DNA of 36,047 nucleotides from NCBI GenBank assembly GCA_021791275.1, contig JAJYWX010000020.1:1-36047 (forward strand), in the 5' to 3' direction. A program made the translations under genes and the position numbers. The stretch comes from a bacterium (GTDB taxonomy: Bacteria > Patescibacteriota > Dojkabacteria > JAKAPS01 > JAJZLI01). Below the pieces are notes generated by a model. The model had not been told where the DNA came from, searched no databases, and saw only the letters and a program-made list of their open reading frames with translations. Position 1 is the first letter of the stretch. Each line of letters opens with the position of its first letter. This document shows positions 22,831 through 30,897 of the stretch, piece by piece.

Positions 22831-23931
22831 ATGATTAAAACAATAGATAAAAATTTACAAACAAATTATATTCCTTTCTTAAATTATATCCCTCAGTCTT
22901 TAGTTATAGAGAATAAAATTCCATATTTCCTAGAATTCGAATATAAGACAGAAGAGAGAGTAGAACTCCAAGATACAGTCATATCAGATACTTTTAAAGA
23001 AAGAGTTGATCCATATGCAGGACATTCAACATTAATTTCTAAAAGAAGAAGTCTTCGGCCTCAGCCAGATTTGGAAAAAGGAGAATATGAAAAATCTCAA
23101 TCATGCCTTTTTGATGATTTGGAAAAAGTTGCACATCCATACAGAGAATTTAGTGAAATAAAAACTCTGATAGCACCTAACCCTTTTGCCTTTAATCCAG
23201 GATTTCATGATATTGTATTTACTAAAGATCATATAGAAATGATTGAAGAGATAGAAGAGGCACATATATATGGTATATTAAAAACACTCAGAATGAGAGC
23301 TCAAGAAATAAAAAAGAATAAAGGTATAGATCAGCTTGATATGGGAATGAATTTTGGTACCAGTAAACTTAAATATTCTTCAGGTGCATCTCAACCTCAT
23401 CTTCATGCACAAATTGGAGCTGTATATAAAAACGGATTTATGCCTACATCAGATAGAATCAGTTATGTAAATAAAAAATTCTTAGAAATAGGTATTGATT
23501 ATGAAGAGTTATATATGGAAGCAAGTGAAAAATCAGAGCTTTTCATATTAAAAAATGATGATTTTATACTATTCGCTCCATTCTCACCAAGATTTAAAGA
23601 TGAAATTCATATAATATCAAAAGATAGGAATATTCCTAATATAACAGTTTTAACAGATTCTCAACTTAATAGTTTATCTCAGCTCTTATTCAAAGCAATA
23701 AAAGGACTTAGAGAATTAAAATTCGAAAATGAAAAAGGAGAATTAACAGATGCAGGAATAGATAGTTTTAATATTGAGTTTTTAGGGTTAAGGTTTCAAG
23801 AAGAAAGCGGAAGGATGTTAATACAGATTATACCAAGAGAAAGTGAAATTGCTTATTCAGAACTTTTGGAGAGATTCATAATTGATAGAACTCCAGAAGT
23901 TACATCAAAATATTTAAGAACAATAATATAA
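22831..23931 (+). CDS. GalT/HIT-superfamily nucleotidyltransferase or phosphorylase
   Basis: A 366-residue protein of the galactose-1-phosphate uridylyltransferase superfamily. The catalytic triad segment QPHLHAQ holds the H-x-H-x-Q core (His190, His192, Gln194), where the second His would carry the nucleotide. NPFAFNPGFHDIVF (117-130) matches the GalT region that precedes it. Both GalT and the related ADP-glucose phosphorylase have this fold. As first gene of an operon with two glycogen synthases it may make or break an NDP-glucose donor; no GlgC or galactose gene is visible here. The exact substrate is inference. Confidence 0.75.
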   Translation: MIKTIDKNLQTNYIPFLNYIPQSLVIENKIPYFLEFEYKTEERVELQDTVISDTFKERVDPYAGHSTLISKRRSLRPQPDLEKGEYEKSQSCLFDDLEKVAHPYREFSEIKTLIAPNPFAFNPGFHDIVFTKDHIEMIEEIEEAHIYGILKTLRMRAQEIKKNKGIDQLDMGMNFGTSKLKYSSGASQPHLHAQIGAVYKNGFMPTSDRISYVNKKFLEIGIDYEELYMEASEKSELFILKNDDFILFAPFSPRFKDEIHIISKDRNIPNITVLTDSQLNSLSQLLFKAIKGLRELKFENEKGELTDAGIDSFNIEFLGLRFQEESGRMLIQIIPRESEIAYSELLERFIIDRTPEVTSKYLRTII

Positions 23932-23932
23932 T

Positions 23933-25450
23933 ATGAACAAATTAAAAATATTATACGTAGCAGCTGAAGTATATCCATATGCAGGAGTAGGTGGACTTGG
24001 CCAGGTAGCATATTTTTTAACAAAGCAATTAAAAAAACAGGGATCTGATGTAAGAATAATGATGCCAAAATACGGAAGTATTGATGAAGAGACATACCCT
24101 ATGGAAATGCTTTATGAAGGAGTAAAAATTCCAACAGAATCTGGAAGAGAAGTAATTTGTAATATAAAAGAATATAAAGATCCAAAAGATAAAGATTCAC
24201 CTATCGTATACTTTTTAGAAAATATGGAATTCTATGAGAAAAGATCTAATGTATATGGATACATGGATGATGACATAAGATTTTTGCTTCTTTCAAAGGG
24301 AGTAATAGAATTTTTAAAAAAATCAGACTGGATTCCAGATGTAATCAATTGTGCCGATTGGCATACAGGACATATACCTAATATACTAAAATCTGACTAC
24401 AGTAAAGATAAAAAATTAAGAAATATTGCTACAGTATTTAGTATTCACAATATAATGCACCAGGGAATGATTGATCACAGGAATGCTACTGATCTTGATT
24501 TTGATAATGGAAAAGATGATATAGCAGACCTATTTGACCCAAAACTTAAAAAACAAAATTTTGTAAGGAGAGCAATAATCTACTCAGATATAGTAACAAC
24601 TGTATCTGAAACATACTCAAGGGAAATATTAACAGAAGAATATGGAGAAGGACTAGAACATCTTTTAAGAGAAGTTAGAACTAAGCTTGTTGGAATCTTA
24701 AATGGAATTGATTACACATATATGAACCCGGAAACTGATACAAACATCATAGCAAACTATAACTCCAAGACATTTATAAGAAGGCAAATAAACAAAGAGG
24801 ATTTACAAAAAGAATTTAATCTAGAAGTATGTAATAAGCCTGTGGTTGGTATGGTAACAAGGTTAGATAACCAAAAGGGATTAGATTTAGTTATGGATAT
24901 TATTGAAACTGCGATAAAAGAGCTAAATATACAATTCATAATAATTGGAGGAGGCGATTCAAAATATATAAGATACTTCTCTGATCTTGAAAGAGAATAT
25001 CCCAAAGTAGTTGGAACTCATTTGATGATGGATTTCACTCTTCCTAAAAAAGTTTTTTCTGGTGCTGATCTTGTACTTCTTCCTTCAAAATTTGAACCTT
25101 CAGGAATAACACAGATGGAAGCAATGAGGTATGGATGTATTCCTGTTGCAAGAGCAGTAGGGGGACTCTCCGATTCCATAGAAAATTTCGATATGATTTC
25201 TAAAAAAGGAAATGGCTTTCTATTCCATGAATATAATCCATATGCATTAATGATGGCACTTACAAGAGCTATCGAGAATTATAAAAATGAAGAAATCTGG
25301 AAAGAGATTGTGCAATCTGCAATGGAAAAAGATTTCTCGTGGGAACAGTCATCTTTGAAGTACATAGATGTTTACAGAAGAGCAATTAATAGGCATAATG
25401 GAAAAGAGGAAACTAAAGAAGATGTAATTTATCATATGTATATGTTATGA
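23933..25450 (+). CDS. glgA: Glycogen synthase-like GT5 protein, copy 1 (altered donor loop)
   Basis: A 505-residue GT-B protein of the GlgA family. The N-terminal domain starts ILYVAAEVYPYAGVGGLGQV; the His-containing SIHNIMHQGM, the RLDNQKG donor motif and the C-terminal FEPSGITQMEAMRYG are retained. In canonical GlgA the first loop reads K-(T/V)-GGL-(A/G)-(D/E); here the lysine position is Gly18 and the acidic position is Gln. That lysine contacts the ADP-glucose phosphate, so donor choice or activity may differ from copy 2. The C-terminus has about 20 extra residues. One base separates it from the GalT-like gene, and its stop overlaps the next ATG. Confidence 0.85.
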   Translation: MNKLKILYVAAEVYPYAGVGGLGQVAYFLTKQLKKQGSDVRIMMPKYGSIDEETYPMEMLYEGVKIPTESGREVICNIKEYKDPKDKDSPIVYFLENMEFYEKRSNVYGYMDDDIRFLLLSKGVIEFLKKSDWIPDVINCADWHTGHIPNILKSDYSKDKKLRNIATVFSIHNIMHQGMIDHRNATDLDFDNGKDDIADLFDPKLKKQNFVRRAIIYSDIVTTVSETYSREILTEEYGEGLEHLLREVRTKLVGILNGIDYTYMNPETDTNIIANYNSKTFIRRQINKEDLQKEFNLEVCNKPVVGMVTRLDNQKGLDLVMDIIETAIKELNIQFIIIGGGDSKYIRYFSDLEREYPKVVGTHLMMDFTLPKKVFSGADLVLLPSKFEPSGITQMEAMRYGCIPVARAVGGLSDSIENFDMISKKGNGFLFHEYNPYALMMALTRAIENYKNEEIWKEIVQSAMEKDFSWEQSSLKYIDVYRRAINRHNGKEETKEDVIYHMYML

Positions 25451-26838
25451 ATTGGGTAAACTATATTTATATATACCAACCCCCCACACAAAAAAAAGAT
25501 ATCCTAGAAAAAGTTATGGATCAAAGTTATAGACCTATACTTAATCTATTATTAGAAAATCCTCAATCACATATAAATATTAATGTAAATGCAGGGTTAA
25601 TAGAAATGTTCTCAAGAAATAATGGAGACGACATCATAGAAAAATTAAAAGCTCTTCTTAATAGAGGGCAAATAGAGATTTCTGAAACATCTGCATATCA
25701 GGCTTTTCTCCCTATGATACCTAAAGATGAAATAAAAAGACAGATTCAAAGAAACCACAGTATAATGAAATCCTTTTTAGGAGATAATTACCAGCCTCAA
25801 GGTTTTTTCTCTCCATCAATGGCATATACAGATACAATCTTTAATATAGTTAAGGAATTTGGATATAAATGGATTATACTTGATGAGAATGTTCTGAAAG
25901 ATAGATATATACTTAAACATGATCGAATTTATACTCACGATGGGTTAAACATTTTTATAAGAGACAGAGCTCAAAGTTTTAAAATAATGTCATATAACAT
26001 TGATAATAACCAAGAATTAATCACAGACCTTAATAAAACATTTTCTCAAGAAGAATTTTTGATAACAGCAATAGATGGAGAAACATTTGGACACCATAGA
26101 GTAGGGTATGAGAGAATACTTTTTTATATATATAACTCTAATAAAATCAACTCCTACCTTCTCTCAGACATACCTGACATAATAGATAAAAAGGAAGAAA
26201 TACAACTTCAAGAAAGTAGTTGGATACTTCCATCAAAAAATGAAAGAATATTTGAAAGATGGTATTCTAAAAATAATTTAATACAGAAAAAGCAATATGA
26301 ACTCTTGAATCTAGCTATTAAAACAATTCAAGGATCAAAATATAGAATTGATGATCCTCAAATTGTAAATAAAGATATTCGAAATATAAAGACAAGTGAG
26401 AAAACATGGTTACAATCAAGATATTTATTAGATGAAGCAATGTATCAAGATCAATTTTTCTTCTCTTCTGCAAGACCAGCTTGGAGCATGGATCTTATAG
26501 AAAAAGGAGCCTATCTTCTATCTGAAGTAGTGAGATTAACTCCAGATGCAGATAAATTTGATAAAAATAAAAGTAGAAAACTCTATCAAGATATAGTACT
26601 CACTGGAATAAAGTGGCAAAAGGAAAACACTATTACAAAAATGGTAAAACAATTCTTTGAGGATGAAAGGCCTGAACAAGGGGAATCCTTAGCTCCTAAG
26701 CTTTCTCATGAAGAATATTTAAAAGTATTAAAAAGATTGACTATAAACATGAAAAATTCTGCAAAAGCAGAAGACTATGATATAGCTCAAAGCTTTAAAG
26801 AAAGAATAAATGAACTTAAAAAGAATCAAGAAAGTTAG
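25447..26838 (+). CDS. GH57-like protein, copy 1, predicted catalytically inactive
   Basis: A 463-residue GH57 domain protein co-linear with copy 2 through the first 150 residues. The GH57 regions are: YIYQPP (copy 2: HIYQPP; His8 replaced by Tyr), GQIEISETSAYQAFLP (His85 replaced by Gln), GFFSPS (the nucleophile Glu124 of copy 2 is Ser124), and AIDGETFGHH (Asp210 acid/base retained). Loss of nucleophile and two His argues against hydrolysis or transfer. The fold could still bind glucan. Residues about 425-463 (VLKRLTINMKNSAKAEDYDI, AQSFKERINELKK) resemble a UVR motif. The start overlaps the glgA stop (ATGA). Confidence 0.82.
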   Translation: MNWVNYIYIYQPPTQKKDILEKVMDQSYRPILNLLLENPQSHININVNAGLIEMFSRNNGDDIIEKLKALLNRGQIEISETSAYQAFLPMIPKDEIKRQIQRNHSIMKSFLGDNYQPQGFFSPSMAYTDTIFNIVKEFGYKWIILDENVLKDRYILKHDRIYTHDGLNIFIRDRAQSFKIMSYNIDNNQELITDLNKTFSQEEFLITAIDGETFGHHRVGYERILFYIYNSNKINSYLLSDIPDIIDKKEEIQLQESSWILPSKNERIFERWYSKNNLIQKKQYELLNLAIKTIQGSKYRIDDPQIVNKDIRNIKTSEKTWLQSRYLLDEAMYQDQFFFSSARPAWSMDLIEKGAYLLSEVVRLTPDADKFDKNKSRKLYQDIVLTGIKWQKENTITKMVKQFFEDERPEQGESLAPKLSHEEYLKVLKRLTINMKNSAKAEDYDIAQSFKERINELKKNQES

Positions 26839-26844
26839 TATAAT
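26839..26844 (+). promoter_or_regulatory. Internal -10 before GH57 copy 2
   Basis: TATAAT starts one base after the copy-1 stop and is followed by exactly six bases and ATG 26851. The second half of the operon could therefore be expressed separately. Confidence 0.45.
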
Positions 26845-26850
26845 AAAAAT

Positions 26851-28284
26851 ATGATATGGGCTAATTTATTACATATATACCAACCTCCGACTCAAGACAA
26901 AGATATGCTTGATAGGATAACAGAAGAATCTTACAAGAAGATTATCTCAGGGTTGAAAGAAAATCCAAGAGGTAAACTTACTATCAATATGAATGCCTCT
27001 TTAACTGAGCTTTTTGAAAAATATAAATACAATGATGTATTAGATGATATAAAATATCTTCTTTCAAATGGCCAAATAGAGATAACAGAATCTGCAGCTT
27101 ATCATGCATTTCTGCCTCTTATTCCAAAAGAAGAAGTAATAAGGCAAATAAATCTAAACCATATAATTAATAAACGAATTTTAGGTGATGTATATAACCC
27201 CACAGGATTTTTTGCTCCTGAATTAGGTGTATCTCCTGCTGTAGCTAAAATAGTTTCAGATATGGGATATAAATGGATGCTTTTTGATGAACTTGCATTT
27301 GACCAAAAGAAGGGAAAAATAAAATACGACAGAATATATTATGTAGATGGGACAAATCTCATTGGATACTTTAGAGAAAGAGAGATAAGTTTTAAAATAC
27401 TATCTGCCCAAGTTGAAAGTGGAGATATATTTTTATCAGAAATAAAGGATATAATCTCTGATAAAAGATTCCTTGCAACAGCAATGGATGGAGAAACTTT
27501 TGGGCATCATAGACCAGGACTAGAACTTTTACTCTACGATATATTCAAATCTAGAGCAATACAATGTGAAGAATATCAAAATTTAGATCAATTTTTCCAC
27601 AAAAAAGATACAGTTAATATAAATGAATCCACTTGGGCACTTATACCAATAGAGCTAACAAGAAGCCAACCTTACGAAAGATGGTTTAACAAAAGCAATG
27701 AAATACATGTAAAACAATGGACTCTAACCTACTTTGCTATAGATATGGTAAATAAATCTAAATATAAAGTAGATGATCCTATGTTTACAAATAAAAAAGG
27801 AAAATTAAATAAAAATCAAAAACAGTGGTTGAAAGCAAGGTATATGCTTGATAAATCTCTACATTCTGATCAATATTGGTGGGCATCAGCAAGACCTTGG
27901 TGGAGTATAGACATGATAGAAAGAGGTGCAAATGAGCTAATGACAAGTATTTTGCTTCTTCCAGAAGTTGATGCTAAAATAAAAAATAAAGCTGAAGATA
28001 TATATAAAGATATAGTATTTTCTGCATTTAGATGGGAAAGAGAAGATATTGTAGGTCAAACTGTAGCTAACTATGATGAAGAGACCACCGAGATGATACA
28101 AACGAAATCTTTAGATGCTGATCCTAAGGAATATGATAAAGTAATAAATCATTTAAGAAAACAAATGCTTGAAGCATCAGATAAGGAAAATTACATAAAA
28201 GCCTTAGAGTATAGAAAAAGAATAGAATCGTTAAGGCAAAAACAAAAAGAAATAATAAAGAATAAACATGGAAAGAAAAATTAA
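26851..28284 (+). CDS. GH57 alpha-glucan enzyme, copy 2
   Basis: A 477-residue GH57 protein with the catalytic set intact: LLHIYQPP (His8), GQIEITESAAYHAFLP (His85), GFFAPELGV (nucleophile Glu124) and AMDGETFGHHRPG (acid/base Asp213). The family contains alpha-amylases, 4-alpha-glucanotransferases, amylopullulanases and branching enzymes. The short length and the absence of other domains do not decide among them; next to glycogen synthases, branching or disproportionation is most plausible. The C-terminal helices (INHLRKQMLEASDKENYIKA, LEYRKRIESL) resemble the UVR motif of UvrB/ClpC. Its 3' end overlaps glgA copy 2 by 17 bases. Confidence 0.87.
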   Translation: MIWANLLHIYQPPTQDKDMLDRITEESYKKIISGLKENPRGKLTINMNASLTELFEKYKYNDVLDDIKYLLSNGQIEITESAAYHAFLPLIPKEEVIRQINLNHIINKRILGDVYNPTGFFAPELGVSPAVAKIVSDMGYKWMLFDELAFDQKKGKIKYDRIYYVDGTNLIGYFREREISFKILSAQVESGDIFLSEIKDIISDKRFLATAMDGETFGHHRPGLELLLYDIFKSRAIQCEEYQNLDQFFHKKDTVNINESTWALIPIELTRSQPYERWFNKSNEIHVKQWTLTYFAIDMVNKSKYKVDDPMFTNKKGKLNKNQKQWLKARYMLDKSLHSDQYWWASARPWWSIDMIERGANELMTSILLLPEVDAKIKNKAEDIYKDIVFSAFRWEREDIVGQTVANYDEETTEMIQTKSLDADPKEYDKVINHLRKQMLEASDKENYIKALEYRKRIESLRQKQKEIIKNKHGKKN

Positions 28285-29614
28285 GGTATTATTTATAGCA
28301 TCTGAGTTAACTCCTATTGTAAAAGTTGGAGGCCTTGGAGACGTAGCAGGATCATTGCCCAAATATCTCAAAAAGTATATAGATATTGAACTTGTTATAC
28401 CTAGCTATAAAAGTATTTCAGAAAAGTTACCTACACTTCCAGATTCAGATGTAAAAATTAATTATATCGATATTCCAGAATTTTTCTCATCTAGGGATAA
28501 TATTTATGGATATCAAGATGACCCAATTCGTTTTGCAAATTTCTCAAGAGAAGTTGTTGAAAGAATAGAAAAAAAAGAATTTGGAGAAGTTGATATAGTA
28601 CATGTAAATGATTATCATACATCCTTAATACCTTTACTTATAAAAGATAAAAAATTAAAAATAAAATCAATTCTTTCTATACATAACCTGGGCCCTGCAT
28701 ACCAAGGAAGGTACTCTCTAGATTTATTGGATCATTTAAATTTGAAACTAGACCACTTAACAATAGATATAGATAAGTCAGATAATGAAATAAACCCTCT
28801 ATTACAAGGGATACTAAATTCAGATATAGTATCCACAGTATCACCTACATACGCTAAAGAGATTCTTACAAAAGAATATGGAGGTGAACTGAATGATTTC
28901 CTAGAACTTAGAAAAAACAAGCTTTTTGGAATACTCAACGGAATAGATTATGAGTTTTTTAATCCTGAAACAGACAAAAACATTTATTGTAACTACAACT
29001 TAGAAAATTACAAAATGGGTAAAATGGAAAATAAAACAAAGCTAATATCTGAACTCCATTTAAATTTTAATCCAGAAAACCCTTTATTTTCATTTGTAGC
29101 AAGATTAGACTACCAAAAAGGTATAGATATTTTAATATCTTCAATAAAAACATTAAAAAACAAGAATATACATTTTCTAATATTAGGAACAGGAGCAAAA
29201 GATTTTGAGAATGAATTGCAGACATTGGAAACTGAAGATAAAAATATGTTTGCGATGATAGCGTTTGATGCAGTTCTTGCAAATAAAATTTATGCCGGAT
29301 CTGATGGGCTTATAATACCTTCAAGATATGAGCCGTCAGGACTAACACAAATGATTGCAATGAAGTACGGAACATTGCCAGTTGTAAGGTCTACTGGAGG
29401 ATTACATGACTCAGTGTTTAATTTACAAACAGGATTTGTATTTGAAAATTATTCTGCACTAGATCTTACTAATACAATAAATGAAGCATTATCAGTATAT
29501 AACAATAGGCACCAGTGGGATGACATGATAAATAATGCTATGAAAGCAGATTTCTCATGGTACAATTCCTCGCAAAAATATATAGTGCTGTACAATAAAA
29601 TCCTAGAAGATTAA
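28268..29614 (+). CDS. glgA: Glycogen synthase (GT5), copy 2
   Basis: A 448-residue GlgA. The donor loop KVGGLGDV keeps Lys19; SIHNLGPAYQGRY carries the catalytic His; VARLDYQKGIDIL is the Arg/Lys phosphate clamp; and PSRYEPSGLTQMIAMKYG is the C-terminal donor site. It adds glucose from ADP-glucose (or another NDP-glucose) to alpha-1,4-glucan in the cytoplasm. It is shorter than the usual 475 residues but all domains are present. It closes the operon; nothing clear as a terminator follows before the next promoter. Confidence 0.93.
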   Translation: MERKIKVLFIASELTPIVKVGGLGDVAGSLPKYLKKYIDIELVIPSYKSISEKLPTLPDSDVKINYIDIPEFFSSRDNIYGYQDDPIRFANFSREVVERIEKKEFGEVDIVHVNDYHTSLIPLLIKDKKLKIKSILSIHNLGPAYQGRYSLDLLDHLNLKLDHLTIDIDKSDNEINPLLQGILNSDIVSTVSPTYAKEILTKEYGGELNDFLELRKNKLFGILNGIDYEFFNPETDKNIYCNYNLENYKMGKMENKTKLISELHLNFNPENPLFSFVARLDYQKGIDILISSIKTLKNKNIHFLILGTGAKDFENELQTLETEDKNMFAMIAFDAVLANKIYAGSDGLIIPSRYEPSGLTQMIAMKYGTLPVVRSTGGLHDSVFNLQTGFVFENYSALDLTNTINEALSVYNNRHQWDDMINNAMKADFSWYNSSQKYIVLYNKILED

Positions 29615-29638: not shown

Positions 29639-29667
29639 TTGACCCATAGAGTTTTCTATTGTATAAT
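29639..29667 (+). promoter_or_regulatory. Promoter of the WG-repeat gene
   Basis: TTGACC (29639-29644), 17-base spacer, TATAAT (29662-29667), nine bases to ATG 29677. It is the closest to the sigma-70 consensus in this window. Confidence 0.75.
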
Positions 29668-29676
29668 TACCTGTTT

Positions 29677-30897
29677 ATGATTATAGAAAAAGATTTACAA
29701 CAACAAGAAAGACTTCCTGATGAATTAGATTTAGAAGAAAGGAATAGAATATCAAAAATGTTAGGAGCAATTTATGTTGGTCCAATAAATGATATGGGCA
29801 ATACTCTTGCCACAATAATAAACAAGGAGGGAGAAGAGGAAACAATTATGGTTAATCTTGCAGGAAGAAAGATAAATAGAGAAAAGTATACCAAAACTAT
29901 ACCTGGCAAGGATATTGGAGATCCAATATTAGTAAAACTAAAAGATGGAAAATATAGATTTTTACTCCCAGATGGATCATACCTAGAAAATCTAGAAGAT
30001 GGAAAAATACATGAGTTTGGTAGTGCATATCCTTTTGATGGACAGTATGCAAGGATAAGGATAAAAACTGAAGACAATAAACAATATGAAAGGCTGATTA
30101 GAAAGGATGGACAATTTGCATCAGGAAGCTTCAGAGAAATTTATCCTCCTTCATGTGGAATATCAAAAGCAATATTAGATACAGGAGAGGTTGTCTATAT
30201 TAATTCCAAAACAGGAAAAATTATAAGAGATGATATTGAAAGTGGAAGAGAGTACTCTGATGATGGAACAGATATGCCATTTGTAGTAATACGCAAAAGA
30301 GGGAAAGATTGGTTTATGGATAAAAATGGACATGTAAGGTATGATTTGGGTGGCTTTGAATCAGCAAAAACTGTACGTAATGGAATATCTTTAGTTAGAA
30401 TTGATGGATTATACCGTTTACTAAATCTTAATGATGGATCCTATATAAAACTTGAAAATGGTTCCACATTTTTCGATAATGCAAACTCCTTTTCAGAAGG
30501 GTTTACTGGAGTAGAAAAAAATGGACAATGGTATATTATTGATAAAAGTGGAAAAATTATAAAGAGCGGACTCAAAGGTGTAAGATCCTTTCACGAAGGA
30601 TACTGCATTATAGACAAAGGTGATGGAATCTATTTAATCAATACAGATGGCACAGAAATAGCAGGACCATATACTGATATAAATGGTATTTCCGATGGAT
30701 TTTTTGCTCTTAAAGTAGGATATTCTGAATGGAGGATCGGAAATATAGATGGCACAACTTTACCAGGGATTTTTCATGATGCGGGGAAATTTAAAAATGG
30801 TGTAATGAAAGTTGCAATAAAAAAAGAGGATGGATCAGTCTGGGGAGCATATATAAATAAAAAAGGAGAATCTGTTTTTACTCCTTATAAATTATAA
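29677..30897 (+). CDS. WG-repeat (KWG) protein
   Basis: A 406-residue protein of tandem repeats of about 40-50 residues, with a recurring pattern such as KNGQWYIIDKSGKIIKSG, RGKDWFMDKNGHVRYDLG, RIDGLYRLLNLNDGSYIKL and GDGIYLINTDGTEI, each followed by a strand with F/Y-x-(D/E/N)-G. This is the WG/KWG repeat family, whose members are beta-rich and mostly uncharacterised. No signal peptide or membrane helix. The start is ATG 29677 (MIIEKDLQQQER); an upstream in-frame TTG at 29659 overlaps the -10. It converges with lysS (6-base overlap). Confidence 0.8.
   Translation: MIIEKDLQQQERLPDELDLEERNRISKMLGAIYVGPINDMGNTLATIINKEGEEETIMVNLAGRKINREKYTKTIPGKDIGDPILVKLKDGKYRFLLPDGSYLENLEDGKIHEFGSAYPFDGQYARIRIKTEDNKQYERLIRKDGQFASGSFREIYPPSCGISKAILDTGEVVYINSKTGKIIRDDIESGREYSDDGTDMPFVVIRKRGKDWFMDKNGHVRYDLGGFESAKTVRNGISLVRIDGLYRLLNLNDGSYIKLENGSTFFDNANSFSEGFTGVEKNGQWYIIDKSGKIIKSGLKGVRSFHEGYCIIDKGDGIYLINTDGTEIAGPYTDINGISDGFFALKVGYSEWRIGNIDGTTLPGIFHDAGKFKNGVMKVAIKKEDGSVWGAYINKKGESVFTPYKL

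Follow-up and report, generated by a model that had tools for sequence, protein, structure and literature searches.

A probable GH57 pseudoenzyme encoded beside its catalytically complete paralogue, between two glycogen synthase genes, in a family of Dojkabacteria

It is proposed that the first of two tandem GH57 genes in a genome of the Dojkabacteria (Patescibacteriota) encodes a conserved pseudoenzyme, copy 1, which probably assists the product of the second gene, copy 2, as a subunit without catalysis of its own that binds glucan or acts as a scaffold. We infer that copy 1 is inactive from the residues that it has lost. The two genes lie in a window of 36,047 nucleotides (contig JAJYWX010000020.1 of assembly GCA_021791275.1), the whole stretch of DNA that was analysed, and the features of the pair are as follows.

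25447..26838, + strand: copy 1, a GH57-like protein of 463 aa lacking the nucleophile Glu (Ser124 instead) as well as His8 and His85, and keeping Asp210 of DGETFGHH
25816..25818, + strand: Ser124 codon of copy 1, at the GH57 catalytic nucleophile position, just past strand beta4 of the model
26074..26097, + strand: DGETFGHH of copy 1, retained; Asp210 ends strand beta7, the proton-donor position
26851..28284, + strand: copy 2, a GH57 protein of 477 aa with His8, His85, Glu124 and Asp213, presumed to be an active enzyme

The two proteins align end to end with 39% identity and 64% positives (E 2e-124), confirming the tandem GH57 copies of the earlier note, which had aligned them at their starts, and both score far above the cut-off of 21.2 bits for the GH57 profile PF03065 (102.8 bits for copy 1 and 110.9 for copy 2). 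The pairwise alignment likewise places Tyr8, Gln85 and Ser124 of copy 1 opposite His8, His85 and Glu124 of copy 2, with DGETFGHH common to both, just as that note had read them.

The catalytic machinery of GH57 enzymes consists of a Glu at strand beta4 and an Asp at strand beta7 (PMC6037648). Glu124 of copy 2 aligns with the catalytic Glu of the Thermococcus 4-alpha-glucanotransferase (1k1w) and with a Glu of the Staphylothermus amylopullulanase (7e1y); since the fourth strand of the copy 1 model ends at residue 121 and the seventh at residue 210, Ser124 and Asp210 would occupy the nucleophile and proton-donor positions. The nucleophile Glu is present in copy 2 and absent from copy 1, where Ser or Ala takes its place in all six orthologues, and the proton-donor Asp within DGETFGH is found in both proteins (Asp210 in copy 1, Asp213 in copy 2). 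Among the residues named at the outset, only Glu124 and the Asp of the DGE are GH57 catalytic residues; His8 and His85 are conserved residues of the active region (TLGT has no His opposite His85 of copy 2). The loss in copy 1 is also wider than first noted. Of the columns that are at least 95% invariant in 103 rows of other GH57 proteins, eight are fully lost from copy 1, F174, W290, S339, W344 and W350 (copy 2 numbering) having gone along with H8, H85 and E124, and 23 are kept, including D213, E215, G218, H219, W262, W278 and W351 (same numbering). Part of the glucan cleft may remain, because the aromatic residues W259, W272 and W346 (copy 1 numbering) are retained; the loss of W290, W344 and W350 weakens the case for glucan binding.

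Copy 1 might still be an enzyme with an altered mechanism, in which Asp210 works with another acid, or an external nucleophile takes up the vacated Ser/Ala site, to give a different reaction. The invariance of DGETFGH and of Asp146/Glu147 in copy 1, together with the strong purifying selection described below, would fit such an enzyme. However, position 124 alternates between Ser and Ala, and a comparison of the orthologue columns revealed no newly invariant acidic residue in the barrel, which leaves the possibility raised in the earlier note, that a different acid acts as nucleophile, with no candidate there. The invariant acids that copy 1 has gained, D367 and E407, sit among the C-terminal helices. 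Asp146/Glu147, which close strand beta5, occur in the active copies too and are therefore not a replacement nucleophile. We consider an altered mechanism very unlikely.

Orthologues of copy 1 were found in six of the eight genomes of the source family (G000, G001, G002, G004, G005 and G006), and copy 2 adjoins every time. Their reading frame is open in all six, which represent four genera; of the remaining two genomes, G003 has no cassette, and in G007 the first gene for a glycogen synthase of family GT5 is cut by the contig end. Position 124 reads S, S, S, A, A, A across the six orthologues, so that none retains the Glu, whose retention the earlier note had named as counting against its reading; position 85 is Gln in every case, five of the six have Tyr at position 8 and the other has Phe, and DGETFGH is invariant. 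The Ser/Gln/Tyr set is accordingly conserved at Gln85 and variable at its other two positions. An assembly or sequencing error at these sites is ruled out, since six separately assembled genomes agree.

The same type of GH57 protein is found across the Patescibacteria. With copy 2 as the query, a scan of 84,980 species genomes returned 76 loci, nearly all from this phylum, and His8, His85 and Glu124 are kept, wherever the column exists, in the 103 non-copy-1 GH57 rows. A copy 1 profile, run independently against 380 genomes of the phylum, added about 50 GH57 rows, in all of which His85, Glu124 and Asp213 are present where the column is readable (one row is gapped there). These searches found copy 1 in no genome other than the six of its family, and the same catalytic loss was seen in none of the other matches read from the 380 genomes. 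That about 150 other Patescibacteria GH57 proteins of this type are intact where readable points to a single loss, in this clade. A second tandem GH57 layout occurs at several loci (L044, L045, L048, L051, L105 and others), in which a complete, UVR-less GH57 of 400-460 aa lies just upstream of the UVR-bearing one. Orthology of copy 1 with these shorter upstream proteins, from Kerfeldbacteria and others, is ruled out, because they fall outside the clade of copies 1 and 2 and are catalytically complete. Two genomes of a sister family in the same order, G008 and G009 (L008, L016, L009 and L034), carry a different adjacent GH57 pair, one member resembling GH57 branching enzymes and the other of about 480 aa; they were rejected as instances of the same case, being other GH57 types with an intact WLPE motif in both members.

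Copies 1 and 2 form sister clades in a careful tree, with a support of 97/93, each clade being supported at 100, and a larger quick tree agrees on this sister placement. Such a topology argues for a duplication in the ancestor of the family, followed by one catalytic loss and then retention: a UVR-bearing GH57 gene duplicated there, and its upstream copy lost the nucleophile and some of its cleft a single time, ahead of the family's diversification, and has been kept by selection since. The selection analysis draws on the G005/G006 pair alone, as most other pairs have a large or saturated dS, and puts dN/dS at 0.051 in copy 1, at 0.047 in copy 2 and at 0.062 in the second GT5 gene. Copy 1 is therefore under purifying selection equal to that on copy 2 in the sole unsaturated pair. 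If copy 1 were decaying and on its way to loss, its faster evolution would be expected, with a stem of 0.67 versus 0.36 for copy 2 in the careful tree and an identity between the nearest genomes of 62-63% versus 79%; we read this faster long-range divergence, on the sequences compared, as weaker rather than absent constraint. With a dN/dS of about 0.05, the close pair argues against decay being under way in that lineage; moreover, all six genomes, from four genera, have an open frame, and the catalytic loss predates the diversification of the family. Decay is rejected on dN/dS and conservation, and is to our minds barely credible. The preference of the earlier note for a non-catalytic role over decay is well supported as far as sequences can tell, given that the Glu is gone from all six orthologues, that selection is purifying, that the fold is predicted to be intact and that copy 1 always adjoins copy 2.

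The AF2 model of copy 1 (pLDDT 87, pTM 0.83) comprises an incomplete (beta/alpha)7 barrel followed by helices, and the best solved-structure matches to it in a Foldseek search are GH57 enzymes. The closest solved sequences and folds are the Thermococcus litoralis 4-alpha-glucanotransferase (1k1w) and the GH57 amylopullulanases (7e1y), in which a nucleophile Glu stands opposite Glu124 of copy 2; they differ in sharing only 14-19% identity with copy 1 by structure search and in matching regions that exclude the C-terminal tail of the two copies. This tail carries a UVR motif in each protein.

26722..26823, + strand: C-terminal UVR motif of copy 1 (residues 426-459), from PF02151 and a hairpin in the model
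28135..28239, + strand: C-terminal UVR motif of copy 2 (residues 429-463), from PF02151

The PF02151 scores are 22.4 bits for copy 1 and 29.1 for copy 2 (cut-off 21.5), both tails are modelled as a helix hairpin, which spans residues 421-440 and 444-462 in the copy 1 model, and the motif is found in five of the six copy 1 proteins. It is also widespread in Patescibacteria, on 25 of the 26 copy-2-type GH57 proteins scanned (L039-L110, the source family included), with or without a second GH57. UVR domains are dimerisation hairpins in other proteins such as UvrB/UvrC, Clp regulators and DISC1 (PMC13273187), with which the two copies share a C-terminal antiparallel helix hairpin matching PF02151; here, by contrast, the hairpin is joined to a glycoside hydrolase domain. 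Because the motif occurs in relatives without copy 1 as well, it may serve homodimers or bind something else.

A fused copy 1-copy 2 chain, made by reading the stop codon of copy 1 as Ser, was also modelled with AF2. Both domains are confident (pLDDT 82.7, pTM 0.71); the score comes without inter-domain error values and leaves any contact unplaced. For two fully independent domains we would expect a pTM nearer 0.5, so the value is only suggestive of contact between the copies. A Foldseek search with the fused model returned GH57 and GH38 enzymes only, which has no bearing on contact. Taken with the common UVR motif and the tight coupling of the genes, the fused-chain model (pTM 0.71) would be compatible with a partner role for copy 1, of the kind that the earlier note suggested.

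The neighbouring genes place the pair in a cassette with the order GalT-like, GT5, copy 1, copy 2, GT5.

22831..23931, + strand: GalT-like nucleotidylyltransferase, whose nearest solved structure is Arabidopsis At5g18200 (ADP-glucose phosphorylase)
23933..25450, + strand: first glycogen/starch synthase of family GT5 (GlgA type), its N-terminal KxGGL motif lacking the Lys; the gene runs into the first bases of copy 1
28268..29614, + strand: second glycogen/starch synthase of family GT5 (GlgA type), its motif reading KVGGL; the gene overlaps the last bases of copy 2

The order GT5, copy 1, copy 2, GT5 is found in every genome with intact contigs, the genes overlapping or lying a few bases apart, and in all four relatives with flanks that were read a GalT-like gene neighbours the cassette. 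The model of ADP-glucose-type glycogen synthases is matched by both GT5 proteins. No match to glycogen phosphorylase was found in the family. With two GT5 glycogen synthases and a GalT-like protein present and no phosphorylase match, a role of the cassette in glycogen synthesis or remodelling is likely. No NTP transferase of GlgC size was seen in the source genome, where the NTP transferases are of 289 and 359 aa. Copy 2 may be a branching enzyme, a transferase or an amylopullulanase; its SDQYWW motif ends in two Trp, an ending linked, though not unambiguously, to amylopullulanases in a 2018 survey (PMC6037648).

We propose that copies 1 and 2, made from tightly coupled genes, associate, plausibly via their C-terminal UVR hairpins, that copy 1 would hold or position glucan or stabilise copy 2, and that both would work in one pathway with the two glycogen synthases whose genes flank theirs. 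Copy 1 could instead act alone, as a glucan-binding protein in which the whole domain serves as a carbohydrate-binding module anchoring the glycogen synthases or the glycogen particle, with no contact to copy 2. An intact barrel, the retention of Asp210 and several cleft Trp residues, and the position of the gene between glycogen synthases would all suit this; we nevertheless hold it to be unlikely, as copy 1 is never seen without copy 2, both copies bear UVR motifs, and several near-invariant aromatic positions have been lost. Nor, in our estimate, is it at all likely that copy 1 is a chaperone-like protein or regulatory switch for copy 2 that makes no contact with glucan: the coupled genes and the UVR motifs agree with such a role, but a mere scaffold would have no obvious need for DGETFGH and the part of the cleft that are conserved.

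For a non-catalytic subunit of copy 2, the plant isoamylase ISA2 would be the nearest functional analogue. Its catalytic residues are replaced, and it is needed together with ISA1 for the stability and activity of their complex (PMC3787081). Like copy 1, it is a paralogue of an alpha-glucan enzyme with replaced catalytic residues, conserved alongside an active paralogue in glucan synthesis; unlike copy 1, it is eukaryotic and belongs to GH13, and the heteromultimer has been shown for the plant pair and is only proposed for copies 1 and 2. More tentatively, the two copies may form a dead/live GH57 heteromer joined by their UVR hairpins, the dead subunit positioning glucan for its live partner in glycogen synthesis, as an independently evolved prokaryotic counterpart of ISA1-ISA2; this fuller model is possible rather than probable.

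GH57 'like' proteins with incomplete catalytic residues are an established and functionally unexplained category (Janecek and Blesak 2011; PMC6037648). Copy 1 resembles them in having the GH57 fold and conserved regions with incomplete catalytic machinery, the nucleophile being lost and the donor kept. It differs in being the sister of a neighbouring active gene, confined to one Patescibacteria family, and in having a UVR motif and a constant adjoining active partner. The literature search returned nothing that combines GH57 with a UVR domain or with a pseudoenzyme, and no UVR-bearing dead/live GH57 pair was found in the literature searched. GH57 'like' proteins without catalytic residues are therefore already known, and the new element, as far as that literature goes, is a well-delimited, UVR-bearing dead/live pair. 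Pseudo-GH57 proteins have long been listed without a role, and copy 1 offers a clear origin in the tree and a single constant active partner in its cluster; with a shared dimer-type motif and two small proteins, the role of a GH57 pseudoenzyme becomes directly testable. If the proposal is correct, even the streamlined genomes of Patescibacteria keep a non-catalytic glycogen protein.

The GT5 genes of the cassette are also unequal. The KxGGL site of the first GT5 is YPYAGVGGLGQV, and its Lys is missing from the family orthologues and from several other Patescibacteria as well (ASVGGL, VMVGGL, SAVGGL and STVGGL); the second GT5 has retained KVGGL, and the EPSG motif at the C-terminal end is present in both. 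With the first GT5 altered and the second canonical, each of the two duplicated pairs in the cassette consists of one canonical and one altered member. The GalT-like gene is upstream of the cassette in the source family; in other Patescibacteria it adjoins the second GT5. Immediately after the cassette, at 29659-30897, comes a gene for a WG-repeat protein with no homologue in the fetched loci.
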